Origin: a virus
Direction: 5' to 3' (one strand)
DNA length: 23,466 bases
IMG/VR virus record: IMGVR_UViG_3300023215_002850
Span: 1-23,466 of that record
Part shown: positions 1 through 22,275 of the stretch, piece after piece
Layout: each line of letters starts with the position of its first letter
Position numbering within the stretch: the first letter of the stretch is position 1
Notes under the pieces: model-generated
What the model was told of the DNA's origin: nothing
Seen by the model: only the letters and a program-made list of their open reading frames with translations
The model's database searches: none
Program-made: the position numbers and the translations under genes

Positions 1-407
1 ACCCCATGTGCTCGAAAGTCGCTATCTATGGCAAATCTTTGGCTGTCAAATTCTATTCTTTTTGCTTGGGATACGGTTGAGTAATCAGCGGCCTTTAAAA
101 TCATTCGGACCTTTCCTTCTGGGAGAAAGATCTTAAGTTGTGAGTTTGATTGGCTGTCGGCAAAATAGTCTTCGGGATAATTCTTTCCGTATAAAATTCG
201 TGCGGAAACAGTGGAGGATTGAGGTGTATAGGTTATAGGGGTTGTCGCTCCGGCGTTCCCGTAAATAGTATTGTAAGATTGGCTTGGTGTAGAAATGGTG
301 ATAACAGCATCTTTATAAACTGTTACATTCCGTGCAAAAGTATCGTGGAGGTCGTCCATTGCGTCATTACACGTAGTTTTTTCTGCAGTAGTTAAAAGAC
401 TTGCCAT
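1..407 (-). CDS. Partial phage structural protein, probably head-tail connector/neck
   Basis: An open frame starts at an ATG on the minus strand (bases 407-405) and stays open to the left window edge, giving at least 135 residues. It begins MASLLTTAEKTTCNDAMDDL and has a helical N-terminus followed by a beta-rich body, with segments such as LKIFLPEGKVRMILK and FDSQRFAIDSDFRAHG. That style (a short helix, then a small beta barrel mentioning a residue run like 'G-x-V-R' and a final 'D-x-R-x-H-G') is what I would expect of head-completion or neck proteins of tailed phages, but I cannot name a family. No Shine-Dalgarno is visible; a TATAAT-like box lies only 6 bases upstream of the ATG. It is transcribed away from the tail genes, so it opens a divergent gene block outside the window. 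That the frame is coding is fairly safe; the function is a guess from context. Confidence 0.65.
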   Translation of the reverse strand, partial: MASLLTTAEKTTCNDAMDDLHDTFARNVTVYKDAVITISTPSQSYNTIYGNAGATTPITYTPQSSTVSARILYGKNYPEDYFADSQSNSQLKIFLPEGKVRMILKAADYSTVSQAKRIEFDSQRFAIDSDFRAHG

Positions 408-474
408 ACTATTATTATACACTTTTATTTTTTTTTTTAGAAAAAACTTATTTTAAAAGCATAATTTATAAGAT
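408..474. promoter_or_regulatory. Divergent AT-rich intergenic region
   Basis: This 67-base gap separates the minus-strand gene from the plus-strand tail block. It holds an 11-T run (428-438), the minus-strand motif at 414-426 and, for the plus strand, a weaker relative AAAAGCATAAT (455-465) followed by TATAAG (467-472), only 2 bases before the ATG at 475. There is no purine-rich ribosome site before either gene. No stem-loop accompanies the T run, so I do not call a terminator. The simplest reading is a bidirectional late promoter region. Confidence 0.4.
414..426 (-). promoter_or_regulatory. Putative late promoter motif AAAAGTGTATAAT
   Basis: Read on the minus strand this is AAAAGTGTATAAT, 6 bases before the ATG at 407. 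The identical 13-mer lies at 20947-20959 on the plus strand before another start codon, and a one-base variant lies at 2225-2237. TATAAT matches a bacterial -10 box; no convincing -35 is present. Transcription beginning about 7 bases downstream would start at the initiation codon. The role as a promoter is inferred from recurrence and position. Confidence 0.55.
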
Positions 475-1236
475 ATGAAATCTATTTATAGCTTTACGGT
501 TCATTTAGTTGAGGAAGTTGACGAAACAACCAAAGAAAAGAGAAAAAACAAGGAAACGGGAAAACAGGAAGAGGTTGAGGTCACCAAAAAAGTCAAGAAA
601 AAGGTTCCCCACGAGATTGTTTTAAAGGAGCCGGGACGGCGGCAACTAGAAGATGCGGATATGGAATACTCTATTGAAATTAGCAGATGTGTTAAAAAGG
701 GCATCTTGACAAAAGCCATGTTGGCCAAAAAGTACTCGGATACGGGGGGAATTCTCACTGAGAAAGACGCGCAACGTTTAATAGATTTATACGGAGAATT
801 AGCAGAGCTCGAGAGAGAGGCCTCTACCCTAGGTATAAAAATAGGGGATAAGATCCCAGTAAAATCAAACGACAAATCTAAGGAAATCCACGGAAAACTC
901 GCTTTAACGCGCCGAGATATTGTTAATCTCGAATCTTCTTATCAAAGCTTGTTTAACCATACTGCCGACATTAAGGCACAAAATCGTGTGATTTTATGGT
1001 ATATAGTCAACTTAACATATGTAAAAAAAGAAGGTGATGAGAAGCTTCGTCCGCTTTTTGAGGGTGATACTTTCGAAGAGCAGGTAGATGATTATTACGA
1101 TCAAGACGAAAGAGGGGATGATTTATTTGGGGTAACGCATCCTAAGTTGGCTGCGTTGATAAGTTATTGGTATTTTAGCGCTTCTCCAACTAAAGAAGAA
1201 TTTGATAACTTGATCAGTGAGATCCAAACCAAATAA
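475..1236 (+). CDS. Putative tail assembly chaperone-like protein, first of pair
   Basis: This 253-residue acidic and lysine-rich protein has an N-terminal beta segment, a Lys/Glu-rich stretch (about residues 15-45), then long amphipathic helices (LTEKDAQRLIDLYGELAELE and the region around 135-180 containing HTADIKAQNRVILWYIVN). It ends with an acidic tail. I do not recognise a named family. Its place, in a two-gene overlap directly upstream of the tape measure, is where G/GT-type tail assembly chaperones sit in siphophages, and both genes share a similar helical design, which suggests that they are paralogues. Chaperones of this kind coat the tape measure during tail assembly and are absent from the finished virion. 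The last 20 bases overlap the next gene. The start ATG lacks a Shine-Dalgarno. Coding status is clear; the chaperone role is inferred from synteny. Confidence 0.7.
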   Translation: MKSIYSFTVHLVEEVDETTKEKRKNKETGKQEEVEVTKKVKKKVPHEIVLKEPGRRQLEDADMEYSIEISRCVKKGILTKAMLAKKYSDTGGILTEKDAQRLIDLYGELAELEREASTLGIKIGDKIPVKSNDKSKEIHGKLALTRRDIVNLESSYQSLFNHTADIKAQNRVILWYIVNLTYVKKEGDEKLRPLFEGDTFEEQVDDYYDQDERGDDLFGVTHPKLAALISYWYFSASPTKEEFDNLISEIQTK

Positions 1237-2206
1237 GGTTAATTATCGTTATTTGTTTAGGGATGTTGTTCTAGGGTTTTGTGAAATAGACCTCGAGGGG
1301 AAAACCCTTTTTATTAAGCACTTGTCGACCTTAGATCAGGTTGACTTAGAGGTTTTAGAGGAAAAGTTTTTTACCAAAGCACAAACTCGCGGTTTACCAA
1401 CTGAGCAAGAAGCCCTTGAACGCCTTCAGGATGAAGAAATGTGGACTAAGGGCGATGAAGCTAAGGTCAAAAGACAGGAGCAATACGTCGAGGGGGTAGA
1501 AAATGCACGCAAACAACTTTACCTTAAAACGGAACTTGACACCAACGAAAAACAACTAAAAGAGGGGCGCGACAAACTAGCAGAGCTTTTGTTCGACAAA
1601 GAGAAGTTGATTGGACAAACGTGTGAAAAATATTCACGAAATCGGGTGAGCGACCATTATATCTTAAAGTCTTTTTTCAAAGACAAAGGTCTTACCGCTT
1701 TAAATTACACAGACGAGGAAATGAGCGAACTTCCTATGACGGAACTGAAAACTCTCACGGAAGCGTATAATTCACATCTGGGCTTATTTACTGACAAAAA
1801 TGTTCAAGATTTGACGTTGCAGAACTTTTATGCTCCTTATTTTCCGTTTTGTGACAGTGTGATGAATTTTTTTAATAAGCCGCTTTTTCAGTTGTCATCT
1901 ACCCAAGTAAAGCTAATAGTATTCACACGTATGTTCAAAAATATATTTGAAAATTATCCAAAAATCCCGGAATCTATACGTCAAGATGCAACCAAAATTA
2001 TTGATTATGTCAACGCACAAGACAAAGCAAAAGATGCCCTAAGTAATCTAGACAAAGATGGTGCTTCGACTGTCATGGGGGCAACAAAGGAAGACTATGA
2101 GTATTTGGGACACCAGCAAAATCCTCAAGGACGCTCCCTTAGTTCCATGTTAAAGGCAAAAGGAGGTAAAATGGATATGAACGATTTAATGGAAACGATG
2201 ACATAA
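1217..2206 (+). CDS. Putative tail assembly chaperone-like protein, second of pair
   Basis: The frame runs 329 residues from a GTG at 1217, overlapping the previous gene by 20 bases in the +1 frame. The protein starts with a compact beta segment (VNYRYLFRDVVLGFCEIDL, then KTLFIKHLSTLDQVDLE), followed by a helical body (the regions QLYLKTELDTNEKQLKEGRDK and YILKSFF) and a FYAPYFPFCDSVMNFF segment. The 'display of a target, then D-Q-V-D-L-E' opening resembles assembly chaperones and hub-associated proteins of large phages. No ribosome site precedes the GTG, so expression is by translational coupling or by a frameshift that fuses it to the upstream gene, as in the G/GT pair of lambda. The frame is open only from 1214, so any shift must occur within 1214-1236. 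The role is inferred from location immediately before the tape measure. Confidence 0.7.
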   Translation: MRSKPNKVNYRYLFRDVVLGFCEIDLEGKTLFIKHLSTLDQVDLEVLEEKFFTKAQTRGLPTEQEALERLQDEEMWTKGDEAKVKRQEQYVEGVENARKQLYLKTELDTNEKQLKEGRDKLAELLFDKEKLIGQTCEKYSRNRVSDHYILKSFFKDKGLTALNYTDEEMSELPMTELKTLTEAYNSHLGLFTDKNVQDLTLQNFYAPYFPFCDSVMNFFNKPLFQLSSTQVKLIVFTRMFKNIFENYPKIPESIRQDATKIIDYVNAQDKAKDALSNLDKDGASTVMGATKEDYEYLGHQQNPQGRSLSSMLKAKGGKMDMNDLMETMT

Positions 2207-2224
2207 GGCGAACAAACATTTGAA

Positions 2225-2237
2225 AAAAGTGTATATT
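2225..2237 (+). promoter_or_regulatory. Putative late promoter motif AAAAGTGTATATT
   Basis: This element differs from the 13-mer at 414-426 (minus) and 20947-20959 (plus) by one base in the -10-like box. It lies in the 47-base gap between the chaperone-like genes and the tape measure, 16 bases before the ATG at 2254. The tape measure has no Shine-Dalgarno, so a separate transcript with a very short leader is plausible. Promoter function is inferred. Confidence 0.5.
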
Positions 2238-2253
2238 TTATTGATAGTGCACT

Positions 2254-5200
2254 ATGATCAAACTCGACGCCATCATTAATGACAAGAAGCTTCTCACCTC
2301 TATCCAAAAAGGCGTAGATACTTTTAATAAGTCTACATCAGGCAGAAGCAAGCTTAATCTTAAGATTAACGAAAAAGGGTTTCGTCAACCGTTGGGCCGC
2401 ATAACGGGAGACTTGGATAAATTTGAATCTGCATTAGCGGCTTCCAATGCTCGTGTTATTGCTTTCGGCGCATCTACTGCCGTCATTGGTGGAATGACTA
2501 AAGCTTTTAAAGAGTTAGCGCTCACCACCATAAATGTTCAAAAATCATTTGCTGACATCAATCGTATCCTAAATGTGAGCAACAGGGAGTTCGACCAATT
2601 TTCCACTCAGCTTTTCAACATAGGCAAGAGGACAGCTACTACTTTTGAGGATTCTTCTAAGGCAGCGCTTGAGTTTGCGCGGCAGGGCTTGAGTCTTAAC
2701 GAAACCTTAAAACGTACCGCTGACGCGTTAACTTTGGTGCGTTTAACTGGAGTTAATGCGGACAAAGCGGTGTCCTCACTGACAGCGGCGGTCAATGCTT
2801 TTCAACATACTTCTATTTCCACCACTGAAGTACTAAACAAATTTGTAGCAGTGGAAACAAAGTTTGCTGTGTCTGCACGAGACTTGATGGAAGGATTGGG
2901 TCGTGTGGGTTCAGCCGCAGTCGATGCAAAGGTAAATTTTAATGAATTGAACGCTATGGTTGCGGCCGTGCAACAGCAAACGGGTCGAGGTGGTGCGGTT
3001 ATAGGTAACGCTTTAAAAACTATTTTCACGAGGTTACAACGAAGAGATACGTTGACGGCTCTCGAATCCTATGGAATAGCAGTGAGGAATATTGAAGGGC
3101 AGACGCGCCCCGCCATGGCCATTTTACAAGATTTTGCAAAAACCTATGATACTCTTGCTGACTCGAATAAGGCTTACTTAAGGGAACAGGTGGCTGGAGT
3201 GTTTCAGGCAAATATTTTGTCCGCTATAGTTAAGGATTTAAACAGTAATACACAGGTGTATAACAGGGCTTTGACGGTATCGGCAGGTGCTACCAATGAA
3301 GCCGATATGGCTAACGCAAGGCTTAACAAAACACTAAGCGCTTTATTGTCCCAAACTGGCACAGAACTAATAAGACTTCAAGAAAACATAGGAAAAATCA
3401 CCTTTGAACCAATAGCTAAAGGTTTGTTGGGTCCATTTAAGGGCTTAATAGAAGGAATAAATAATCTTGTTGATGGTGAGGGTTTAGGTTCGGAGATTGC
3501 AAACGGACTATTAAAAGGAATACGCAATGTTTTAGCTGGACCCGGATTGGTGGGCGCTATTGCTATTATTGGCTCCACTGTTATTAAAACCGTCGGGTTT
3601 ATGGCAAAGGCTCTTCCAACCCTAGTGGGAATTACGACCCAAGTTCAGAAACGAGCCAACCTTGAAACTACCATTAGCGGGATGCTGGCTTCGGACGCAG
3701 GGCTAACAAAACAAATTGCAGCCAACGAAGGCAAGGCCGCCGTTCAAGCGGGTATTTTATTAGGAGCGGCTCAGAAGGCCGAAACAGCGTTCGCAGCGGC
3801 AGCTCTTACAACAGCGGCAATTGCTAAAAATTTAGCTGCCGCAGGAGTGACCACGAACAAAGCAGGCGCACTAGTGCCTCGTGGTCGCGGAGCATTCGGA
3901 AGAGGGGCTGAAGGTTTTATTCCCGGTGCTGCGGGAGAACTAAATGACATACATCGTGGAACCGGAGGAGTAAGTTCGTCGGCCCGTCCAGTTCATCTTC
4001 CTAATTTTGCATTTGCAGGGGGGGCTCGCGGAAGTATGATTGCCAATACTGGTGAACATATAGTTCCTAATTATCGAGGAGGAGGATCCGCTATTTTTAA
4101 CCCGGATATGGTAAGGGCAAACGGTGGTTTACCAAGGGGCGCAAAAAAAATAACAGCCTCGAAAGGCTATGTCCCGAATTTTGCTATAAAGCCCACCACA
4201 GCTTTGGGGGCCGGTACTTCACTAGATGCCTTAACAAAAGGCATTATATCTGGTCAGTATTCTGCGATTAATGTCGGCAGAAGTTATGATATCCAAGGCA
4301 AAACATATTCGGCTAGTACTATCAATGAAAAAATCTTGGCAGCAAGGGTCTCGAGGGACGCTAAAGTCAAAGGTAAAAAAGACAAAAAGGGAGCTAAAAA
4401 TGTGTTTTCAATACCGGCCGCGGAGCTTGCGGGAGGGATAGGGGCAATTGTGGGCTTCGCCACTCGCTCACCAGCGGTAGCAGCTACTAGCGAAACTGGA
4501 TTTGCTCAGCTTATAGCTGGAAAAAAGAGCCCGAACCCGCAGCTAGCAGCCTATCTGCAAAAAAACGCTACGGGGAAAAACAAAAAACGTATACAGCTAA
4601 CCGGCATACCCGTAGCAGCTCTTAATAGTCTGGGTGGAACGGGCGACGAGAAAGCAAAGCAAAGTATAGAAAGAAGATTTCGGAAGAAACTAAATAAATT
4701 TATGTTGCCTGCTTTAAATAGGTATACGTCCAATATATTTAAAGATTTACTAAAGGATGATGGCAAAGCCTTTGTTAAAAAACTCACCGAAAACAAAAGG
4801 AACGTTTTTTCTACTTCCGTCGAAGGGGGAATTTTTGAATCAGCCCTTCGGTTGGCAGGACGCAAGTCCAAAGCTTTTAAGGGTGATGACATGGCTCGAT
4901 TTGATTTTGAAGAGAGCGGGACAATTTCTCCCGCACTTGCTGACACTTTTTTTACAGGGAAAAAAGTAACGCGAGCAGATGCCAAACGGAGCGATACCGC
5001 ACCAAATATTAAAACCTTAATTGCAAAATCAGTTGGAACCCCAGAAACCGCTAATTCAATGTGGGAGGAACTCGTAAAACGAGGTGCTTCTCCGGTGACG
5101 GAGAAGGCGGCTCAGGGTTATGTTCCTAATTTTGCAGCTAGGGGTACGGTGGCAGCAAGGGTACAAAAAGGGAGGAGAGCCGCCCGGAACGCAGAGCAGC

Positions 5201-7389
5201 TTCAAATTACTACGCAGTCCGGTTTGACCGTATTGGTGAAGGGAATAGATTATAAGATTGTAGGTGGTAAGGCACGTTTTACGGCAGTCGGGGAACAAAA
5301 GGCTTTTAGCGCGGGAGGTTTAGAAAGGGGGGGCACATCTTTAATGTTAGCAGATGGTCGTATGGTGTTGTCCAATAAGCCGCTTCACGGGATGGCTGCC
5401 ATGCAGGCTGGAATTCCCGCCAGTAAAATTGAGAGCCTCGTAGTAGGAGGAGGTTTTCACAATGTAAATACAGGGAGGCTAACTTATACAGAAAGTGATT
5501 TTGTTCAGAGTAACAGGTTGCAACAAGTAGCGGGTGGTGCCGGAGGTTATGTTCCTAATTTTGCGAGGACGAGCTTGGCACGGAAGCTGGGTGGCCGTCC
5601 ATCAACATCAAAAAAAGTGGTTGACAAAATACTGAAGAAATTTGGTATAAGCAAGAGTTACGTGGCTAGTAAGAAAATGGTCGGTAAAATGAAAGATACA
5701 GGCTACTCGCTACTAGCAAAGGGGGGCGACAATAAAATTGTACAAGCACTGAATTATTTGGTTCGAAGCTTTACGGTTGGGTCGGCAAAAGGATTACCTA
5801 TTGCGGCGTTTGTGGCGGATGCAATAGCGAAATACGGTCTTGTAATAATTAGGCGGGTTATGGCGATAGTGAAGAATCTGCAGGCCGGGAATAGTGCTTT
5901 AAAAGGTGTACAATGGAAGGAGCAATTTGGGTCAACCGCTCAAGGCGGACTGCCCGGTTTTGCTAGTGGTTATGTTCCTAATTTTGGTGGTCTCGGAGCG
6001 GCCATTTCTCGGGAAAAAGGGGCGGGAATCCCTTCTTCGGCTATTCGTATTAGTTCTAGTCCCCGTTTTCAGAACGCACAGAATCCAGCGGGGTTAGCTG
6101 TTACCAATACATTGGATGAACCTAGAGGCTTAGCAGATGTTCCTAATTTTGCTGAGAGCGTTAGACAAATGGCGCAATGGGGCGGAGGATTAACCACAAC
6201 GATAGGCGCGAAGGAGGGCGGTTCTAAGAAAGTCCTCGCGGAAAAAGAAAAGCAATTGGCGCGACAGTTGGATAAAACTCTCAGGGACTATAAAAAAGGC
6301 AAAATAAGCCGAGACAAACTTAACAAGACAAGAGAGAAGTTGACCTCGACGATGAAGCTTACGGACGCAGCAGAAAAAAGGGTAGAGAAATCTGTTACTC
6401 GGAGAGCGAACGCTGTAGACAAAATGAATGCGAGGGGAGGAGTCGGCTTGATGGGTGGCAAGGGGGCCAAGGCCGGCGGTCCCGGCGGCGGCATGGGAGG
6501 TATAATGGCAATGATGCTGGTTCCTATGGCTGGGGGTATGGCCGAACAAGCAGTTGGGGGTCAAGGAGGCGCTGCTATTTCAGGGGCAGCTACGGGAGGA
6601 ATGATGGGGGGACTTTTGGGCGGTATGACCGGAGCTGCGATGGCCACAGCAGGTGTTGGAGGCGGGTTTATGGCTCCCACTTTTGCGGGGATGAAGGTTG
6701 GAGGGGTTGGTGGTCCCGCAGGAGTAGCAGTCGGGGCTGCTATAGGTATAACCATAGGAGCTATAATAGCGTGGAACTCGGCCGCAGAGAGCGCCACCGA
6801 TAAGCTACAAGCTTTCACCGCGGAACTTAACGCTAGTCTAAGCGGGGCCAACGCCTATGCTGCCGGTCGCAAAGCGATGGACGACGCCACCACAATGGAG
6901 CAGTTTGAAATTGCGGCAAATGCGGCTTCGAATGCGTTAATGGCTATTGACGACCCGGGGTTACGAAGAGCTTTAATAGAAAATAAAAATGAATTTCAAG
7001 AACTTACAAAAGTAATTCGGGAATACAAAGAAGAAGAGATGAAGCGCATCGTGCTTCAAAAGGGTATAGCCCAGATAACAGAAATGTTCCCCAAACAAGA
7101 GTTGTTTACCTCTAAGGCATTTTTAGAAGCGGCCGGAATAAAGGAAGGGACGTTCCGTTATTCGTTCCCCGAGGGCATGGGTCCTGATCCAGAAGGTGCG
7201 GGGAAAATCCAACGCAGCCTCGAACAGAAAAGCTTTAATCAGTTGTTACAGTATTTTAGAATGATAGGTACCACCCTTCCTGAGATGGAGAAGATTCAAA
7301 AGGCGTTGGCCGGGGGGGAACATGGATATTTGGGCAAAACGGTGGGGGGGGGGGTCAAGTTGCGCAAGAACAAATTTTCAGCAATTTAA
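2254..7389 (+). CDS. Tail tape measure protein, N-terminal part
   Basis: This 1,711-codon frame encodes the N-terminal two thirds of the tape measure, which sets tail length and is ejected with the DNA. Residues about 63-330 match the TP901-type tape measure core in style (FADINRILNVS, then ALEFARQGLSLNETLKRTAD, then MVAAVQQQTGRGG). Residues 580-1300 carry repeated VPNF motifs separated by unlike domains; one stretch (about 850-915) has a nuclease-like pattern. Residues about 1409-1511 are a Gly/Ala/Met-rich hydrophobic region, suited to membrane insertion during DNA entry. The frame ends with a junk-like tail (KLRKNKFSAI) just after an 11-G run at 7344-7354; the -1 frame continues smoothly as GGGGQVAQEQIFSNLKALTK into the next entry. 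I therefore treat both entries as one gene of about 2,711 residues. The start ATG lacks a ribosome site. Confidence 0.93.
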   Translation: MIKLDAIINDKKLLTSIQKGVDTFNKSTSGRSKLNLKINEKGFRQPLGRITGDLDKFESALAASNARVIAFGASTAVIGGMTKAFKELALTTINVQKSFADINRILNVSNREFDQFSTQLFNIGKRTATTFEDSSKAALEFARQGLSLNETLKRTADALTLVRLTGVNADKAVSSLTAAVNAFQHTSISTTEVLNKFVAVETKFAVSARDLMEGLGRVGSAAVDAKVNFNELNAMVAAVQQQTGRGGAVIGNALKTIFTRLQRRDTLTALESYGIAVRNIEGQTRPAMAILQDFAKTYDTLADSNKAYLREQVAGVFQANILSAIVKDLNSNTQVYNRALTVSAGATNEADMANARLNKTLSALLSQTGTELIRLQENIGKITFEPIAKGLLGPFKGLIEGINNLVDGEGLGSEIANGLLKGIRNVLAGPGLVGAIAIIGSTVIKTVGFMAKALPTLVGITTQVQKRANLETTISGMLASDAGLTKQIAANEGKAAVQAGILLGAAQKAETAFAAAALTTAAIAKNLAAAGVTTNKAGALVPRGRGAFGRGAEGFIPGAAGELNDIHRGTGGVSSSARPVHLPNFAFAGGARGSMIANTGEHIVPNYRGGGSAIFNPDMVRANGGLPRGAKKITASKGYVPNFAIKPTTALGAGTSLDALTKGIISGQYSAINVGRSYDIQGKTYSASTINEKILAARVSRDAKVKGKKDKKGAKNVFSIPAAELAGGIGAIVGFATRSPAVAATSETGFAQLIAGKKSPNPQLAAYLQKNATGKNKKRIQLTGIPVAALNSLGGTGDEKAKQSIERRFRKKLNKFMLPALNRYTSNIFKDLLKDDGKAFVKKLTENKRNVFSTSVEGGIFESALRLAGRKSKAFKGDDMARFDFEESGTISPALADTFFTGKKVTRADAKRSDTAPNIKTLIAKSVGTPETANSMWEELVKRGASPVTEKAAQGYVPNFAARGTVAARVQKGRRAARNAEQLQITTQSGLTVLVKGIDYKIVGGKARFTAVGEQKAFSAGGLERGGTSLMLADGRMVLSNKPLHGMAAMQAGIPASKIESLVVGGGFHNVNTGRLTYTESDFVQSNRLQQVAGGAGGYVPNFARTSLARKLGGRPSTSKKVVDKILKKFGISKSYVASKKMVGKMKDTGYSLLAKGGDNKIVQALNYLVRSFTVGSAKGLPIAAFVADAIAKYGLVIIRRVMAIVKNLQAGNSALKGVQWKEQFGSTAQGGLPGFASGYVPNFGGLGAAISREKGAGIPSSAIRISSSPRFQNAQNPAGLAVTNTLDEPRGLADVPNFAESVRQMAQWGGGLTTTIGAKEGGSKKVLAEKEKQLARQLDKTLRDYKKGKISRDKLNKTREKLTSTMKLTDAAEKRVEKSVTRRANAVDKMNARGGVGLMGGKGAKAGGPGGGMGGIMAMMLVPMAGGMAEQAVGGQGGAAISGAATGGMMGGLLGGMTGAAMATAGVGGGFMAPTFAGMKVGGVGGPAGVAVGAAIGITIGAIIAWNSAAESATDKLQAFTAELNASLSGANAYAAGRKAMDDATTMEQFEIAANAASNALMAIDDPGLRRALIENKNEFQELTKVIREYKEEEMKRIVLQKGIAQITEMFPKQELFTSKAFLEAAGIKEGTFRYSFPEGMGPDPEGAGKIQRSLEQKSFNQLLQYFRMIGTTLPEMEKIQKALAGGEHGYLGKTVGGGVKLRKNKFSAI
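3994..6153 (+). repeat. VPNF motif repeats in the tape measure
   Basis: The peptide motif GYVPNFA or close variants recurs at tape-measure residues 581 (HLPNFA), 638, 955, 1098, 1239 (ending FG) and 1295 (DVPNFA), with a relative HIVPNY near 602. At DNA level GTTCCTAATTTTG is identical in the copies near 5122, 5551, 5974 and 6139, while the copy near 4171 uses different codons. The stretches between motifs are 56-317 residues long and unlike each other. The repeats therefore punctuate a mosaic rather than form a regular repeat array. Confidence 0.85.
7344..7354 (+). other. Poly-G (11) tract at the frame break of the tape measure
   Basis: Eleven consecutive G residues follow GGT at 7341-7343. 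Upstream the coding frame is that of the ATG at 2254; downstream the -1 frame is open to 10388 and the conceptual join V-GGGG-QVAQEQIF is smooth. A 12-G version would make the gene continuous. A second, 7-G run lies at 7312-7318. The -1 frame is open from 7284, so a shift anywhere in 7284-7389 would work, but the G run is the obvious place. Confidence 0.85.
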
Positions 7390-7424
7390 AGGCGCTTACG
7401 AAAACAGATAAGCAGGGCATTGAG

Positions 7425-10388
7425 GTGCCATTAATAGAACACGATATGGCTAGGGCGTTGGCAGACATGATGGGAGCTTTAGATCCCGGGGCCGCTTTCG
7501 AAGTCTTTGAAAGTAAAGAGCAATTTAATAAGGCAATGCTGCTGAACGCTGTAAGGACTAATATTGTTTCCCTTTACGCGGGGGTTCTAACGCGGAGCAA
7601 GGAGGAAATAAGTGAAATTGCGCGGAGGAAAGAGCAAAAGTTTATATTCATTGACCAGTTTAAAAAAATAGTTACAGAGGTAGATCAGGCTATTATAGAT
7701 AGCGCTCGTATTACAAGAGATGTGGCTTTTCAGGTTACTCGCCGCACAACCAGAACGAAAGCGCGTAGTGAGTTACTAAGAAAAGGACGTAGTGCTTTCG
7801 CTGGGCAAAGGGAAGCCTTTGATGTAAGCGCGGGCAATTTAGCTCTTCGAAGAGAGGATATGGCTAACCCTATTATCATTGCACAAAGTCGGGCGCTGTC
7901 GGCTTTAATTGCCGAGATAAATCAAAAAGGTGGAGCAGGAGGGGTCAATTTACAGGAGTTAAAGACAGGACTGATGGATCCTTTGCGTGGTGGAAATATT
8001 ATGGAAGTCGTAGGGGCGCTGCGTGAACGTTTAGCGTTGCCTCCAAAAGAAGCCGGAGGTCTTGCGGATCAGGCTGTTCGTACGCGAGCCGAAAATATGG
8101 CTCGTAATTTAGAAGCGGCTTGGGGTAAAGCTGGTCAGGTTCTTGACCAGCAACAAAAGGCTCTTCTTGATGAACATAGAATTAATATAGTACGAGAGGA
8201 AATCCTAAAAGCGGAAAGAGATATTCAAAACCAAAAAAATGAATACTTAAGTGGCCTAAAAATTCAACAAGTTAAAGAAGAGGTACGCTTAAAGAAGCAA
8301 TTAAGTGCACTCACAATGCAAGGTAAAGATCCGCGCACCACTCGAGGCATGACGCTATTGGAACAACAATCCTTCAGGTCAAATCTGGAAAGACAAAAAA
8401 TTGTTGCTCAACAAGAGTCTGAGAAGACACAATTAGATTTAGACCTCCGAGCTAAAAAGGCAGCAATAGAAGCTACTTTTTTGCTCAATAAGAGTACGTT
8501 GAGCCTTGTGGGCTCTAATGTGAAACTATTTGATCAGCTTGAGAAACTCAATCGACATCTTGGTGGAACACCCACTACTACGGACGGTGGTACAGCTACT
8601 ACTACGGACGGTGGTACAGCTAAAACGACACCACCACGTCTTGTGAGCGATCCTGCCAAGCGGCAGTCAGGGTTCATGTCGCCGTGGATCGGTGGTGACC
8701 GGGGCTCCGCCCCGTGGTCAAAAGGACAGCCCGGGCCCTCATTTGCTCCAATACTACCAAAGGGCGATGTGTCAGTAGCCGAAAGGAAGGCGATGATGCC
8801 GCCGCGCACCGGCGCACAGGTCGCCGCCGATGACAAGCAACTCGCTGCGGCTCGAGCGGCATTTGCCGAAGGCCGGGGTCTCGCCAAAGGCGATAAGCGT
8901 AAGCTGGGGACCTTCATAGGGCCGACACCGGGGATGATGAAATTGTGGGAGGAGAGCAAGAGGTTCGAGGGAAAGGACCCGACGATCGAGAGGTTGTCTC
9001 CTGTGCTGATCAAAACGGAGAGTATGGCGGAAAAGCGAGAGAAGATAGAAAGCAACATAGCTAAAATAATAGAAAAGATCGTAACTTACCGAAAAAAAGG
9101 CCTTAATTTCTTAAAGAATGACAAATCCGAAGCCGAAGGTTTAACTGACGAATTAGAAGAGCAAATAAAACAATTTAAGAGGCTCGAGAAGGAACAAAAA
9201 AAGGCTAGACGCATAAGGGCAAAAGGGGGATTGGGTATTTTTGATGATGAAGCTGCTCAAGACGTAAAGTTGCTCGGCCGTAAAATAGGCGGCAAAGGTT
9301 TTGGGGAAGGTTGGGGTGGAGGTATGCAAAAGGTTAAGGAGGACTCGGAGACCATATTTAATTTGCTAGGAGAGCGCTTACCTGTTCAGTTGAGAGATGG
9401 TTTGGTCACGGCTATGGAAGCTGGTTTGGATGGAGCTCAGAATATCGGTGATGCCATGAGAGCTATGGCCGTTGATGTGTTGAAAATGATTCGCCGCGCT
9501 TTTTTACAGAGGATGGTCAGTAATGTTGTAGGGGCTCTTCCCGCGGGTCCGACGGACACATCGGAGCAAATTGGAGGATTAATTCGCGCTCAAGCAGGAC
9601 TCTTTGTTCCCGGGAGTGGAAGTGGCGATAAGGTTCCCATTATGGCGGAACCCAAAGAATATGTGTTGAATAAAAACGCGGTGGCGGCCTTGGGCGGTGA
9701 ACGGGCTTTAGATAACCTTAACTTTAATGTGGCTCCTCGTTTTGGGGGACGCATGGCTTTAAACGAAGATCCCTTGAGCAGTAGGATGAGTGGCCTTTAT
9801 TATGCCACTGGTAGTCCAGAGTTGGATGAATTATTGCAGAAAATGAGAGAAAAAGAGGAAGAACGCAAAGCTAAAAAAGCAGAAAAAAGAGCTCTTTGGA
9901 CCAGCTTTGCTACCATGCTTGCTAGCGCAGCCGTATTTAAGGGAATGGATGTGGCAGGCAAAAAGTGGAAAACACACAAACAACTCAAGGCGAGCGAACA
10001 TATCTATGGGCCCGGGGGTCCGGGATCGGCCGCAGGTCCACCTATTCCGTCCACACTGCGCGCGGATACGGGCGAGTGGCCTAAGCAAATGGGGGGCGGC
10101 GTAGTTAGACGCTATGGTCTTGGTGGAGGTTACCAAGCGGGAGGTGCTGTGCGAGGCCTTTCAGGGCCATCTTCTAATACAAACAACATTAGTATCAATA
10201 TCTCTACTGGGTCGAACAATGAAACAGGTAGGAACGCCACCGCTCAGCAAGGTGGACAAGATATAGACTCTGATAACGGTAGTACTTCCAAAGAATTTGC
10301 GCGAAGAATATCAGATGCAGTCAAGCGTGTTATTGTTGAGGAGCAACGAGTCGGTGGAAGTTTGAGTCCCGGAGCTAGGAGAAGGTAA
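7425..10388 (+). CDS. Tail tape measure protein, C-terminal part
   Basis: The frame from the GTG at 7425 gives 987 residues, but it is open back to 7284 and has no ribosome site, so it is best read as the continuation of the tape measure after a -1 shift at the poly-G run. The first half is long charged helix (coiled-coil-like, for example EEVRLKKQLSALTMQ). A Thr/Gly linker with a duplicated TTTDGGTA follows, then a Pro/Gly-rich GC-rich segment. Two features are typical of tape measure C-termini: the motif FVPGSGSGDKVPIMAEPKEY with VLNKNAVAALGG after it, and the final helix EFARRISDAVKRVIVEEQR ending the protein with a Gly/Arg tail. A short helix at residues about 800-850 is strongly charged (KMREKEEERKAKKAEKR). 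The stop overlaps the next start (TAATG). Confidence 0.9.
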   Translation: MPLIEHDMARALADMMGALDPGAAFEVFESKEQFNKAMLLNAVRTNIVSLYAGVLTRSKEEISEIARRKEQKFIFIDQFKKIVTEVDQAIIDSARITRDVAFQVTRRTTRTKARSELLRKGRSAFAGQREAFDVSAGNLALRREDMANPIIIAQSRALSALIAEINQKGGAGGVNLQELKTGLMDPLRGGNIMEVVGALRERLALPPKEAGGLADQAVRTRAENMARNLEAAWGKAGQVLDQQQKALLDEHRINIVREEILKAERDIQNQKNEYLSGLKIQQVKEEVRLKKQLSALTMQGKDPRTTRGMTLLEQQSFRSNLERQKIVAQQESEKTQLDLDLRAKKAAIEATFLLNKSTLSLVGSNVKLFDQLEKLNRHLGGTPTTTDGGTATTTDGGTAKTTPPRLVSDPAKRQSGFMSPWIGGDRGSAPWSKGQPGPSFAPILPKGDVSVAERKAMMPPRTGAQVAADDKQLAAARAAFAEGRGLAKGDKRKLGTFIGPTPGMMKLWEESKRFEGKDPTIERLSPVLIKTESMAEKREKIESNIAKIIEKIVTYRKKGLNFLKNDKSEAEGLTDELEEQIKQFKRLEKEQKKARRIRAKGGLGIFDDEAAQDVKLLGRKIGGKGFGEGWGGGMQKVKEDSETIFNLLGERLPVQLRDGLVTAMEAGLDGAQNIGDAMRAMAVDVLKMIRRAFLQRMVSNVVGALPAGPTDTSEQIGGLIRAQAGLFVPGSGSGDKVPIMAEPKEYVLNKNAVAALGGERALDNLNFNVAPRFGGRMALNEDPLSSRMSGLYYATGSPELDELLQKMREKEEERKAKKAEKRALWTSFATMLASAAVFKGMDVAGKKWKTHKQLKASEHIYGPGGPGSAAGPPIPSTLRADTGEWPKQMGGGVVRRYGLGGGYQAGGAVRGLSGPSSNTNNISINISTGSNNETGRNATAQQGGQDIDSDNGSTSKEFARRISDAVKRVIVEEQRVGGSLSPGARRR
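8574..8621 (+). repeat. Two perfect 24-bp tandem repeats
   Basis: The 24-base unit starting ACTACTACGGACGGTGGTAC occurs at 8574-8597 and 8598-8621 without a mismatch. It encodes two copies of a Thr/Asp/Gly linker (TTTDGGTA). The repeat sits immediately before the GC-rich segment, so it may mark a junction or simply be a slippage-prone linker. Confidence 0.9.
8641..9000 (+). other. GC-rich island inside the tape measure gene
   Basis: By hand count these 360 bases are about 62% G+C, with two 60-base lines at 68-70%, against about 42% just upstream (8461-8520) and 27% just downstream (9061-9120). The frame stays open throughout. The encoded residues are Pro/Gly/Ala/Arg-rich and look like a disordered linker. 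The composition suggests a recently acquired insertion; strong amino-acid bias could contribute. Confidence 0.75.
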
Positions 10389-16800: not shown

Positions 16801-19019
16801 GTATTACCCATAAAGATATTGCTAAGTTTGAGATAAAGAAAGATTATTCGGCTCAGATTTTAGGAGGAGGAGGGGGAGGGGGTGCTGGTGATCGTCTTAA
16901 TTCGCAGCAATCACTTAAAGTTAAGGTTGGTAACTTCGAGGCACCTGTAAGGACTTCAAGGAGTGGTGAGGAGTCAAAAAATTGGTACAATATAGTTAAG
17001 CAGGGGCTAACTGCCGGTGACGAGTGGGAACTCGAACAACTGGGCGAGATTCAGAGGGGTGCCTTTGTCTTTAATCCGTTTTTGGGCAATAGCGACACGT
17101 GGGTGCCGATCACCTCAAAACTGTCATACATGTTAGCGGATAACATTTTTGGGCTGCATTATGGTGGCGCAGGTGGGGGTGGGCAGGGTTTCAGTAGCAG
17201 CATAGTGGATCCCATAATTATTTCCAAAGGCGGCAAAAGAGTGGAGGTTAAAGGGACGAATGGCTCCGAGTCAGAGGTTACAGTTGAACCCCTTGAGATT
17301 CAAAATGGAACATTGCAAGCCTTTGGGGCAGGGCAAGGTGTTAGTATTCCTATGAAAGAAACTTATGGGGGTAGTGGTGCTATTTTTGGGGGCCTTGGGA
17401 TGACAGGGCAACAAGATGGCGGAGGTGATCCATATTCACTTGATAAGGGTAATTCAGGGGGGAGACTAGGAGGGGTACCGGGGAAGGCTATTCGTATTCT
17501 CGATTATAGCGGTACAGCTCATTACACACCAACAAATTTTCGAAATAAGATGCTGTTCATCGGGCCCAGATTCTTTGATCCTTCGAATATAGAGGGGTTG
17601 GTGGCGCAGTTTGATGCTCAAGATACTTCTAATATTGTAGACGTTAGTGCTGGGGCCATTGAGGATAACACAGGTGTTGGAAAATGGACATCTAAAAATG
17701 ATGCTAATGTTTACCTCCAGCAAACCAGTGCTGGCTCAACCCCTACGTTCTTTGGGGGCACCTATGCCACCGGAACCGCGACACAAAGCGGTAACACCGT
17801 TACGGGGGTAGGGACAACATGGGGAGCGTGGATGGTTGGCATGACGTTTAATTTTACCGGAGTATCTGCTAGCGCCGGGTTAATAACAGCGTTTACTAGT
17901 GTTACTCAGATGACGGTGACTGTATCTCAGGCGGTGGGTGTTGCTGAGGGCTATAAAGTTGAAGGCTCTAACCAGCCTTCGGCAACAGCGAGCAATCCTT
18001 CGCCTTTGAATGATACATATTTTAATGCTAAAAATTATGTTTACTTTTATCCCACTGCGGCTAATGCGGCAGATTATTTTGAGTTAGTGGGTGCTACGGC
18101 AAACGACATAATAGTAGACGAAAACGCCATAACAGGGACAACCTCTCTAAAGGTTGCTTCCTTGGGGATTGGATTAGCCAGCGGGACGGTGATTTATTTT
18201 GAGAAAGGCAGCGAAACCTCAACAAGAAGCAAATTTGTTTTGAGCAGTTCCGCCGCGGCTTCTGGATCACAGGTGACTTTAACGGGTAAGCTTTATACCA
18301 CAGGATCAGCGGCAACTACAATAACGAAAGGTACTAAAGGGTGGACCAAGCTTTCTTCTATAATGAGTGGTTTTGAAGTTTTTTACATGCTCTACGCGGA
18401 CAAGTGGAGCGTTGTTGAAGAAAAAGGTGGCTCTGGGCTTGTTTTTGCGGGGGGCAAAGGGAATTTGACTCCTACGTATAAAACCGGTTTTACGCGTTTT
18501 TCTGACCTTAATAGTCGACATATGTCTCAATATTATGGTCGTGAAACAGATCTGGTTCAGGAAACTATGGGCTTAAAAGGAACTGATATGTTTCAGTTTA
18601 GAGATTGGGCTATGTCTGATAATCCGGATAAATTGCCTGTATATCGAGCATGGTCTTATAACTTAAGAGCTACTCGCGCACAAGCATCCCTTATCTATCG
18701 TACTAGAAACGAAGGGAACCCTATGGGGCAGGAGAGTTTTGCGGGCAACACTTTTAATTTTATGTCTACCCCAATTATAGGGGCAAGCCAAATTGACGCC
18801 ACCCAACAAGTTGGTTTTCAGGGAGCTATAGCGGAGATTTTGATATATAGCCGCACTTTGACTGAGACGGAAAGGGTGTGTGTAACTGGCTATTTAATGA
18901 ATAAATATTTACACATTAAAACAACAGAGCTAGGAACACGAGCAGATCTGATTCGCTCTAAGACGAACATTTATGGGGCTGATAGGAATGGGTTTGCCGG
19001 ACCTATTTATTTTAAATAA
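13842..19019 (+). CDS. Giant mosaic tail tip protein with two M-like domains
   Basis: This 1,725-residue protein is a chain of modules. Residues 16-80 and 210-280 resemble small carbohydrate-binding modules of the CBM5/12 type (YEKNDIVYF...SGHYYYTGN...SNWTQDFYF). Residues 85-190 and 283-388 resemble the lambda tail protein M/DUF2460 family (IKYGDGYFNF, ETKALLHFLDD, FNPYNM, and later MKDGLNK, EAKAIIHFLEHH, APYNFSNKVFICQRW). After a long Pro/Gly/Tyr beta region come glycine-rich loops (about 938-1211, for example GGGGGNAG and GGGGGGGAG). A LamG-like domain is split by an insert, with its front near 1248 (IEGLVAQFDAQDTSNI) and its end near 1690 (AEILIYSRTLTETERVCVTG). M-family proteins sit at the tail tip; the rest points to surface or receptor binding. 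No Shine-Dalgarno stands out. Confidence 0.85.
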   Translation: MILNSGVTTIQGIDPFAVGTTYEKNDIVYFSGYNVGATQTTCTEAQSGHYYYTGNTSQVAAASNTPIATTSNWTQDFYFEPSYGASVNYNTSYYGIKYGDGYFNFLNRSENALKATFDVSFEKRTDKETKALLHFLDDSFNRGERPSGGYTGIKWTPFNPYNMEARFFVESFDHQYDSPDVNTVSTSFFNETKTLTDWQAFAIPWSATRQEYNPTGAAYYQHDAVFFESTNAADSITMTPLQSGWYYFTGEAPTTGISSDNYNSPTGGGTLWTKDSFYFDVGAGLNVQQNPRFTKPQLQNEFYIRMKDGLNKNLLTFSLQLTGRTDTEAKAIIHFLEHHRGTDLIRFTLPAPYNFSNKVFICQRWNHSLKFKDNNDITVEFLEFPIDYLKAEDEFNTLITVVNQPVLGSVGAASTKERPENSEFVSNTGLSTYVATGFSMRTGFYLTNSGRYSIETRIERNDAFKAFEFPSGINKPIPIPPGKNAFIPFYFNGIMDNISGPQATTGPFSDGTYTTSLSITSISEGDGVADISGPITLGITGYVTGLGAGNPFRGIVDDNPGNPEKFLIKTGLYDTSSGYPRNFLIWRVPESGYYTTRYNIQNSEDNSNWTGVDYDNVNYRYITDTYGTDTVETNLYTGAMVPPSLITEAGDGAPLKDPLNTGVRQPSSYMHTGFLGFNKDYYYRMRAELEGVAGSVGHNSMWVYGSGTNDLNQIVSEDVETGLTAGSVTYTQDRIKIPTGPKQPLVIYLDNGETNVNLSGKFDQALIGRNMVEQTLVSPGYYVDTKDPETGIYGENFTGVQYIVRSNHLIGATTTTQDMSVTLSSTLADAATTMSMNPVTTLLENGDIVYFGNDTFTLSADASAGDISVAGTAVVVSTLAVGTVGTCNTNLGAIENGYQLITGVVQPADAGPSNPNTLKPLAETPTLLIMKEGSAIAGKGGGGGNAGFTFVTTEKVNTLDANKPELQYIVGKSIDPSEGKKGGDAVRITHKDIAKFEIKKDYSAQILGGGGGGGAGDRLNSQQSLKVKVGNFEAPVRTSRSGEESKNWYNIVKQGLTAGDEWELEQLGEIQRGAFVFNPFLGNSDTWVPITSKLSYMLADNIFGLHYGGAGGGGQGFSSSIVDPIIISKGGKRVEVKGTNGSESEVTVEPLEIQNGTLQAFGAGQGVSIPMKETYGGSGAIFGGLGMTGQQDGGGDPYSLDKGNSGGRLGGVPGKAIRILDYSGTAHYTPTNFRNKMLFIGPRFFDPSNIEGLVAQFDAQDTSNIVDVSAGAIEDNTGVGKWTSKNDANVYLQQTSAGSTPTFFGGTYATGTATQSGNTVTGVGTTWGAWMVGMTFNFTGVSASAGLITAFTSVTQMTVTVSQAVGVAEGYKVEGSNQPSATASNPSPLNDTYFNAKNYVYFYPTAANAADYFELVGATANDIIVDENAITGTTSLKVASLGIGLASGTVIYFEKGSETSTRSKFVLSSSAAASGSQVTLTGKLYTTGSAATTITKGTKGWTKLSSIMSGFEVFYMLYADKWSVVEEKGGSGLVFAGGKGNLTPTYKTGFTRFSDLNSRHMSQYYGRETDLVQETMGLKGTDMFQFRDWAMSDNPDKLPVYRAWSYNLRATRAQASLIYRTRNEGNPMGQESFAGNTFNFMSTPIIGASQIDATQQVGFQGAIAEILIYSRTLTETERVCVTGYLMNKYLHIKTTELGTRADLIRSKTNIYGADRNGFAGPIYFK

Positions 19020-19021
19020 AA

Positions 19022-20611
19022 ATGTCAACACAAGCACACAATCAATCAATAAGCGACCTTCTGCCAGATACAATTATAGAGTTGTACGAGGTGGAACTAG
19101 GAGGGTCAGATGGTATCAAGAGGTTTCACGCGGGCAAGTTAATTGAAAAAGATATTGTTTTATCGGAAGTGACCGACGCTGGCGTTAGGATTCCGCATAC
19201 ATACTTTTCTATACCTTTTGAGGTTGATGGGTTTGAGTCGAGAGGGGACGGCCAGCTCCCTAGGCCCAAATTAACGGTAGCTAACCCCAAGGGCGTTATT
19301 ACAGATTTAATTAAGCGGCGCGACGATTTGGTGGGGAGTTTGTTTAAAAGAGTACGAATTTTTCTTAAGTATATAGACGAAGAAAATTTTCCAGATGGTA
19401 TAAACCCATTTGCCACTTCCGATCCAAGTTCTCGTTTTGACGATGATATATACGTATTCAATAGAAAGGTAACTGAAAATAAATATATGATTGAGTTTGA
19501 GCTTGTTTCGCCTTTGGAGATGGAGAATGCTAAGCTCCCGGCTCGTCTCATGATTGCTAATTATTGTCCTTGGCATTATAGGGGACTAGGGTGTAAATAT
19601 GGACAAAGGGGGAATATGCTGGGGCCTGTAACCTTATCTAAACAAGGTGCGGCGTATTTTTTGGAAGAGGAGGCGGCGGCACTCAACCCGGATGGCACAG
19701 AACGCGGGGACGAAAACAATCTTGTGGCTAATCTGGGGATAGCTGTAGCAGATGAGAATGATAAACAGTTTGTAGGTTATGGTGGTTATGATCTCGGTAG
19801 GCTTAATTGGGCTTATGATTATGACCATAGTGGTTTTACTACTGTAAAAACGGGGAGTTCGGCTAATGACGAAGTTACATCAATTAATGTTGGGACTACT
19901 GTTCAGATTAATAATGGGAGTGGTTATGCTAAAGGAGATTATACACTCAGTGCACTGACGGTTGATGCAATTTCTAGGATAATTTATGCGGGGCAAACCA
20001 TAACATTTACTGGAGGAGGGGAATTAGAGGTATCTGCAGACGCTAGCAGTGGTGCTACTTCTATTTTTGGTACCTTATCAGTTGGGCCTGTGGCGGATAA
20101 CGAGGTTGGAAATGTTGGTATCACGGCTAAAATATCACGAGGTAGAACGATTAAATTTAGCGACGGTTCTTTGGTGGCACTAAGCGCAACAGCTGCAAAA
20201 GACGCCACTTCTATCGCCAGTGCGACCGTTGATTATAAAGGCACTATAGGGGAGATAAAATACGGTGGTTTAAGAACTCCCACCACAGGGGGCACGCTAG
20301 CTGCAGGCGTTGTTGGCACCGTAGGTTATGTAGTGGGTGATATGGTGCGTGTGAAGCCCGAAATGCCTACGGCTTTTACGAAACCGGAAAGTTCGACGGT
20401 GAATCCGGCGGTCTCCTTAGATAGGTTTTTTGTGTGCATCAAGGATCATTATACAGCGCAAGATCCTCGCTATAAGAGTGAATATTGGCGAGAAGATCAA
20501 TGTGGCAAAACTTTGTTTTCTTGCAGGTTGAGGTATGAGGAATTTGCCGAAGATAAGGGTTTGCCTTTTGGGGGTTTTCCATCAATTGAAGCTTATCGAT
20601 ACACCAATTAA
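19022..20611 (+). CDS. Tail tip protein L-like, with a large internal insertion
   Basis: The 529-residue protein matches the lambda tail protein L family at both ends. The N-terminal part carries RPKLTVANPKGVITDLIKRR and NYCPWHYRGLGCKYG (C182, C191); the end carries DQCGKTLFSCRLRYEEF (C494, C501) and LPFGGFPSIEAY. In L the four cysteines bind an iron-sulphur cluster and the protein joins the tip initiator. Here about 295 residues lie between the two cysteine pairs: an acidic patch, a beta module near 320-415 (AGQTITFTGGGELEVSADAS, then SIFGTLSV) seen again in the preceding gene, and a CBM5/12-like piece (VVGDMVRVKPEM ... FFVCIKDHYTAQDP ... SEYW) touching the third cysteine. L usually lacks such an insert. 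The start ATG follows the previous stop by 2 bases and lacks a clear ribosome site. Confidence 0.9.
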   Translation: MSTQAHNQSISDLLPDTIIELYEVELGGSDGIKRFHAGKLIEKDIVLSEVTDAGVRIPHTYFSIPFEVDGFESRGDGQLPRPKLTVANPKGVITDLIKRRDDLVGSLFKRVRIFLKYIDEENFPDGINPFATSDPSSRFDDDIYVFNRKVTENKYMIEFELVSPLEMENAKLPARLMIANYCPWHYRGLGCKYGQRGNMLGPVTLSKQGAAYFLEEEAAALNPDGTERGDENNLVANLGIAVADENDKQFVGYGGYDLGRLNWAYDYDHSGFTTVKTGSSANDEVTSINVGTTVQINNGSGYAKGDYTLSALTVDAISRIIYAGQTITFTGGGELEVSADASSGATSIFGTLSVGPVADNEVGNVGITAKISRGRTIKFSDGSLVALSATAAKDATSIASATVDYKGTIGEIKYGGLRTPTTGGTLAAGVVGTVGYVVGDMVRVKPEMPTAFTKPESSTVNPAVSLDRFFVCIKDHYTAQDPRYKSEYWREDQCGKTLFSCRLRYEEFAEDKGLPFGGFPSIEAYRYTN

Positions 20612-20948
20612 ATTAAATTTTTTAAAACTTATAACACGCGTTTCTTTGTTAAATGGTAGTGAAATATGTGGATTAGGCGCAAAAAACAGTTTATTTTTTT
20701 TTAAAAACATAGCCCCCGACAAGAAAACTGGTTTTTTGATAGATCCGCTAGATTATTTTCATGTTTTTGAGAGGTCTAAATTAGATTTTTGTTTCCATTC
20801 GCATCCAGAGGGTTCTTGTAAGCCCAGCTCAATGGATGTGGAGATGTCGCGCAACGCGCTTATAGATTTTTTGGTTTTTTCTGTGCGGGATAAAAAGTTT
20901 TCACTGTATAGCCCTGTTAGAGAAGAAACGATTTATTTTTCCATTTAA
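20535..20948 (+). CDS. Tail protein K-like JAMM/MPN metallopeptidase domain
   Basis: This 137-residue frame contains the complete JAMM zinc motif: Glu43 in GSEICGLG, then H88-x-H90, seven residues, S98 and D101 (HSHPEGSCKPSSMD). Lambda tail protein K has this domain followed by an NlpC/P60 cell-wall peptidase; here there is no second domain and the protein ends at the JAMM fold. K proteins act at the tail tip during assembly or host entry. The ATG at 20535 overlaps L by 77 bases; the first 17 residues do not look like the domain, so the TTG at 20586, with a 26-base overlap, is a credible start. Context between L and I matches the lambda order L-K-I-J. Confidence 0.85.
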   Translation: MRNLPKIRVCLLGVFHQLKLIDTPIKLNFLKLITRVSLLNGSEICGLGAKNSLFFFKNIAPDKKTGFLIDPLDYFHVFERSKLDFCFHSHPEGSCKPSSMDVEMSRNALIDFLVFSVRDKKFSLYSPVREETIYFSI

Positions 20949-20959
20949 AAGTGTATAAT
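20947..20959 (+). promoter_or_regulatory. Putative late promoter motif AAAAGTGTATAAT
   Basis: This is an exact plus-strand copy of the 13-mer found on the minus strand at 414-426. It overlaps the stop codon of the K-like gene, and TATAAT ends 5 bases before the GTG at 20965. No Shine-Dalgarno is present, so transcription starting here would give an almost leaderless message for the I-I-J genes. Confidence 0.55.
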
Positions 20960-20964
20960 GTAGT

Positions 20965-21627
20965 GTGGTTACCGTATTTCTAGAGGGTCAAATAGCAGCT
21001 GGGTTAGAGAAGCGGTGGCGCCTCAATGTTCGGACGGTAGCAGACGCTTTGAGAGCCATACATGCTAATACGGGGCATTTTTTGGGCACCGTTATCAAGC
21101 ATAAAAATCATTATGTAGTTATGGTGGACGGCCAACCATTGGAAAATACCACCTCTTTATACAAAAAAGTTAAAAAAAGCATTTATCTTATTCCAATCAT
21201 AGCAGGGGGAGTTGTTTATTGGCCTGCAATCAAGGCAGTTATGGGATATTTGATTAAGCATTGGGCAGCTTATGCGGCGTGGGGGGAAGGGGTACAACTA
21301 TTGGTTGCTGCGCTAATTGTATTTGGGGGATATGCTTTGATTTCTTATGGAATACATTTGCTTGTGGAATCTCTTATGGGAAAAAACGATCCTGACACGC
21401 TATCGACAAGCAGCTATGTGTTTCGTGGGCCTCAAAATGTAACTGATCAAGGAAACCCTGTTCCTATAGCTTATGGGAGGCTACTGTCTGGAAGCAAGGT
21501 AATTTCAGTATCCCTCAGTAGCGCGGACAAGTCTAATGACAGTTTTATTAGAGAAGGGCTTAAGTTTAGCGCAACAAGCACAAACTTAAAAGAAGGAGGC
21601 GCCATGGTAACGCGAGCAATATTATGA
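20965..21627 (+). CDS. Tail tip assembly protein I-like, copy 1
   Basis: From a GTG start the frame gives 220 residues. It matches the tail protein I family: an N-terminal beta-grasp-like part (VTVFLEGQIAAGLEKRW, YVVMVDGQPLEN, then IYLIPIIAGG), hydrophobic segments (GVQLLVAALIVFGGYALI), and a conserved C-terminal core FRGPQNVTDQGNPVPIAYGR followed by LLSGSKVISVS. I-family proteins join J, L and K in the tip initiator and are probably not retained in the virion. After the core a variable tail (residues about 190-220) ends in GGAMVTRAIL. It overlaps copy 2 by 4 bases (ATGA). Copy 2 has the same order of motifs but only moderate identity, so this is an old tandem duplication. Confidence 0.88.
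   Translation: MVTVFLEGQIAAGLEKRWRLNVRTVADALRAIHANTGHFLGTVIKHKNHYVVMVDGQPLENTTSLYKKVKKSIYLIPIIAGGVVYWPAIKAVMGYLIKHWAAYAAWGEGVQLLVAALIVFGGYALISYGIHLLVESLMGKNDPDTLSTSSYVFRGPQNVTDQGNPVPIAYGRLLSGSKVISVSLSSADKSNDSFIREGLKFSATSTNLKEGGAMVTRAIL
21592..21599 (+). promoter_or_regulatory. Strong Shine-Dalgarno-like site inside copy 1 of I
   Basis: GAAGGAGG lies 4 bases before an in-frame ATG at 21604, which would encode a 7-residue peptide (MVTRAIL) whose stop overlaps the start of copy 2 (ATGA at 21624). It could feed ribosomes to copy 2 by reinitiation. Codons for Glu-Gly-Gly also create this sequence, so chance is possible. Confidence 0.3.
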
Positions 21628-22274
21628 CTACGATAAGAATAGAAGGCTGGCTTGGCGAGCTATTAGGAAAAAAATGGGACTTAAAAGTTAAAAATTTTGT
21701 AGAACTTTTTAGCGCTATTGAAAATAATACCCATAAGTTTAGGTCTTTTCTTCTTAAAAACCGTGGCAACTCATTCGCTATATTTGTTGATGGGGAACTG
21801 GTAGATAATAAAAATTTTATTTTCACGAATATCCGTGGAAAAAAGGTAGATATCTTACCTGTTTTGGCGGGAGCAACCACAGCTATAGCTGTCGAAATCG
21901 CCAAAGCTGTTGGGTTTACCGCTAAAACATTTGCCTTTGAAGTTGCGGTGTTTGTATTAGATACCATTATTACCGCTGTTATTACCATGGGCATTAGCGT
22001 TTTAATTGCAAAACTAATGGCTCCTGATGATCCTCAAGCTGTAAACACTACTTCTTTTATTTTTGGGTCAGCTGAAAATGTGTCAAGTCAAGGACAGGTT
22101 GTTCCTGTTGGTTATGGCAGGATGAGGACTGGGAGCAAGGTGATTTCATCGTCTATAAGTACAATGGATAAGAAAAAATTTGCCGATGAAGATAAGGAAA
22201 TTTCTACTGCTACGGTATATGGTATGGGGAATATTGAGAGCTTTCATGGTGCACGTATGAGCACTTTACGTTAA
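21624..22274 (+). CDS. Tail tip assembly protein I-like, copy 2
   Basis: This 216-residue paralogue of the previous gene has the same parts in the same order: TTIRIEGWLGELLGKKWDL, FAIFVDGELVDNKNF, VDILPVLAGA, a hydrophobic segment (TIITAVITMGISVLIAKLM), and the core FIFGSAENVSSQGQVVPVGY followed by GRMRTGSKVISSS. Its variable C-terminal tail (YGMGNIESFHGARMSTLR) differs from copy 1. It is coupled to copy 1 by an ATGA overlap, and the J-like gene starts 1 base after its stop. Two I-like proteins in tandem may form a heteromeric initiator or serve different J partners; this is inference. Confidence 0.88.
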   Translation: MTTIRIEGWLGELLGKKWDLKVKNFVELFSAIENNTHKFRSFLLKNRGNSFAIFVDGELVDNKNFIFTNIRGKKVDILPVLAGATTAIAVEIAKAVGFTAKTFAFEVAVFVLDTIITAVITMGISVLIAKLMAPDDPQAVNTTSFIFGSAENVSSQGQVVPVGYGRMRTGSKVISSSISTMDKKKFADEDKEISTATVYGMGNIESFHGARMSTLR

Positions 22275-22275
22275 A

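Follow-up and report, generated by a model that had tools for sequence, protein, structure and literature searches.

The window analysed here is the whole virus record, 23,466 bases in length, and contains a long gene whose reading frame is broken at a site rich in G (Table 1). The upstream ORF encodes 1711 aa and stops shortly past 11 consecutive G residues (G11). Displaced from it by one base, another frame stays open over positions 7284–10388 (1034 aa from stop to stop in the ORF listing), with a GTG at 7425 as its first start codon. Since the two open frames share only 7284–7389, the frame change is confined to this interval. The initial annotation had described a tape-measure frame that starts at 2254 and ends at 7389, and an offset frame that runs on to 10388 with an intact tape-measure C-terminus; both were borne out by the ORF listing and by homology to relatives. 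It had also regarded the residues before 7389 as an implausible tail. The frame does end there, but the tail comprises only about 11 codons, which is too short for a strong judgement from codon usage.

Table 1. Features at the break in the tape-measure gene
Feature	Position	Strand	Basis
Tape-measure gene upstream of the break; stop codon TAA at 7387–7389	2254–7389	+	PHROG and PF10145 matches
Overlap of both open frames; the frame change must fall inside	7284–7389	+	Stop-to-stop ORF listing
G7 run, the other candidate for the length change	7312–7318	+	Sequence; codon log-odds compatible with G7
G11 run, where the length change most likely lies	7344–7354	+	Sequence; length outlier
Remainder of the tape-measure gene, read in the offset frame; contains the conserved C-terminal domain	7390–10388	+	Homology to C-terminal ends of uninterrupted genes in relatives; dN/dS

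The upstream part matched twelve PHROG families, all of them tail length tape measure (best E=1.5e-35), and the Pfam family PhageMin_Tail (PF10145, E=7.1e-25), with zero PHROG or Pfam family matches for the downstream part. Tail genes then follow, with PHROG and Pfam matches to Phage_min_tail, minor tail protein L and tail assembly proteins. Among phage tape measures (PHROG 4211, 14917 and others; PF10145), the gene is typical in its N-terminal domain, its size and its place before the tail-tip genes, and differs in being read in two frames, which is seen only in this contig. A further mark of a tape measure is a very long, unbroken ORF located before the tail-tip genes; it was present in all 28 complete relatives but is interrupted here by the break within 7284–7389. 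By homology, the gene is a tail tape measure despite its broken frame. By analogy with lambda gpH and similar proteins, the C-terminus of a tape measure is expected to act together with the tail tip.

GYVPNFA-type motifs recur about seven times in the central part of the tape measure (residues 582–1296 of the 2254–7389 product) and are present in 3–8 copies in relatives, at positions that are partly alike; a literature search for VPNFA found no phage paper. Elsewhere in the window, two adjacent genes at 20965–22274 both match the tail assembly family phrog_32 and look like a tandem duplication, and a related contig (L007) has two genes of similar size in the place of this pair. Adjacent genes overlap in different frames by 20 bases (475–2206) and by 77 bases (19022–20948), and these overlaps are conserved, since similar ones are found in L004 and L007. 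A run of 11 T lies at 428–438, in the short gap between a reverse ORF (3–422) and the ORF at 475.

The initial annotation had proposed that related phages be searched for a continuous gene, and such a gene was found in every relative in which it is complete. The census consisted of 45 IMG/VR records with the C-terminal domain, of which 28 hold the complete gene (several of these are near-duplicates, with an independent number of roughly 24). All 28 encode the tape measure as a single uninterrupted ORF of 1852–3728 aa, and in the remaining 17 records the gene is unbroken up to the contig end, where it runs off. No census gene had a G run longer than 7. L003 (2438 aa), L004 (2583 aa) and L005 (2366 aa) each have one ORF. 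Relatives share the gene order of the window, and a gene of about 330 aa lies directly before the tape measure in 26 of the 28, as it does here. The nearest complete relative (G002, represented by L052/L068) has one open frame of 2373 codons, with 79 % identity to the window at the N-terminus and 75 % at the C-terminus. Homology to the single-gene relatives runs in order, through the upstream frame to about residue 1600 and through the downstream frame from about position 7407, and the last 360 residues of the downstream part are 73–81 % identical to the nearest relatives and 37–44 % identical to distant ones. The split and the long G run are private to this contig, and the gene of its relatives is continuous.

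Zero matches were obtained among annotated phages, either by DNA search with positions 6400–8400 or by protein search with the downstream frame, and no relative was detected in bacterial and archaeal genomes with an N-terminal profile. Searches with the middle of the gene found no close relatives, which is attributable to the hypervariability of this segment. No IMG/VR record matched the exact flanks when the length of the run was left free. Sample 3300028612 contains a strain 99.7 % identical to the window over positions 17108–23456 (L006, IMGVR_UViG_3300028612_002663, positions 1–6346); the contig of this strain begins only at window position 17108 and hence does not include the junction; its sister contigs may extend over it. 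Within the tape-measure gene, a 466-bp stretch (5116–5579) is 89.7 % identical to L004 and is flanked by matched sequence of about 70 % identity or less. These identities mark the stretch as a mosaic (recombined) block.

Estimates of dN/dS for the downstream part were approximately 0.15, 0.18 and 0.17 against the three nearest relatives (L066, L067 and L068, respectively), and this part of the gene is under purifying selection. No second stop or indel was detected across its 1034 codons. Purifying selection and the lack of a second break indicate that the gene has not decayed, and thus that the break arose recently, affects only part of the population, or is an error.

G11 is the longest homopolymer within coding sequence of the window, and the second-longest G run in the window is 7. 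Runs of at least 11 G arose in 16 of 3000 codon shuffles of the upstream ORF, and a census of related loci (2.03 Mb, partly overlapping) contained one G or C run of at least 9 besides G11, in L128. The other long genes of the window are intact. The contig is not generally indel-rich, which fits a local homopolymer problem and not a poor long-read assembly. By codon log-odds, the best shift point was at 7328, with G11 approximately 1.6 bits worse and G7 and G11 both within 1.7 bits. The junction also falls where the gene is most variable, and the local protein alignment there is not significant. The placement of the split at G11 in the initial annotation was therefore upheld in part: the run is present and is an outlier in length, but the coding signal alone cannot separate it from the G7 run at 7312. 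From the known behaviour of long homopolymers, G11 is most likely the site of the length change.

These data are best explained, with a probability of roughly 0.88, by a single tape-measure gene of about 2,700 codons (2254–10388) in a tailed phage, with a length change within 7284–7389, most likely at G11, that has no programmed function. Sequencing, library PCR or assembly may have misjudged the length of G11; alternatively, the sampled phage population may vary in run length, with the consensus having taken an out-of-frame length. The fault may thus lie in the data or in the DNA; the break is almost certainly a sequencing error or a chance mutation and not a switch. The suggestion of an indel in the initial annotation is supported in this form, as an assembly or sequence error or, equally, as a stray mutation of the tract, by the continuity of the gene and the lack of a long G run in all complete relatives.

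Both routes have counterparts in published work. At 10x coverage, homopolymer errors in Illumina contigs reach about 1 % of proteins (PMC3277595); there, a change of homopolymer length breaks an otherwise intact gene, as it probably does here. G stretches of 6–13 have been observed in reads of one phage, and variable G stretches are described for phages KIL1-5, a PB1-like baseplate gene and a Bordetella phage methylase gene (PMC4791379). Like these, G11 is a long G run that may differ in length from one copy of the phage to another. However, the gene is a different one, the KIL stretches are intergenic, and length variation was shown in those phages whereas one run length is known here.

Readings in which the gene truly has 11 G and slippage (of RNA polymerase, or during replication in a mixed population) gives short and full tape measures or limits the full one are improbable. 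More specifically, RNA polymerase or the ribosome could slip at G11 and make partly the full tape measure and partly a short form, as was suggested in the initial annotation; this we consider very improbable. A precedent is tssM1 of Citrobacter rodentium, in which an 11-base homopolymer is likewise followed by an early stop and then by a long offset frame, and 20–25 % frameshift occurs (PMC4256274), and the intact downstream frame of the window would agree with such a rescue. However, the tssM1 run is of A and its slip was proven by protein and cDNA, whereas the run described here is of G and is not conserved. Neither a G run longer than 7 nor a frame change was found in any relative (28 complete genes), and the short form would be without the C-terminal third of the protein, including the conserved C-terminal domain that all relatives keep. 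The predicted RNA fold of 7345–7435 was not significant (z −1.28, 18 of 200 shuffles as good), although downstream structure is not required for transcriptional slippage. The programmed −1 frameshift of the gpG/gpGT tail chaperones (PMC5009743) shares with this locus a tail gene cluster and a frame change, but concerns a different gene and is widely conserved among phages, which the frame change of the window is not. On present evidence, nothing supports a programmed role of G11 or a phase-variable feature: conservation, the mark of functional frame changes such as that of gpG/gpGT, is absent, there is no significant RNA structure, and the short form would lack the C-terminal domain.

A phase-variable switch, also raised in the initial annotation, would involve changes of run length in replication that toggle the gene between broken and intact and are kept by selection. 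So long a G run would be expected to be unstable, and the variable stretches of the KIL phages and the PB1-like baseplate gene (PMC4791379) provide parallels. However, the gene is expected to be essential for tails, so that its off state should yield no virions; such a run is kept by no relative, the complete ones included, and the exact-flank search of IMG/VR revealed no variants. This switch is less probable still. Both slip and switch had been put forward as new for a tape measure. Literature searches found no case of homopolymer or slippage control of a tape measure. The claim to novelty is to be tempered, since variable G tracts in phages, including that of the PB1-like baseplate gene, had already been reported (PMC4791379). 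Least probable of all is a gene truly divided into two separate proteins, with the downstream part starting at GTG 7425 or nearby: the anti-Shine-Dalgarno pairing upstream of this codon (−5.8 kcal/mol) is in about the top quarter of random sites and is not exceptional, several intact genes of the window have no Shine-Dalgarno site, so that the pairing says little, and every complete relative has one ORF.

We know of no earlier slippage control of a tape measure, and a true 11-G gene with slippage would, if real, be the first such control. Under the favoured explanation, a stray length change in a continuous gene, the two ORFs should be annotated together, as a single tape-measure gene of about 2,700 codons, with no biological meaning read into the break.
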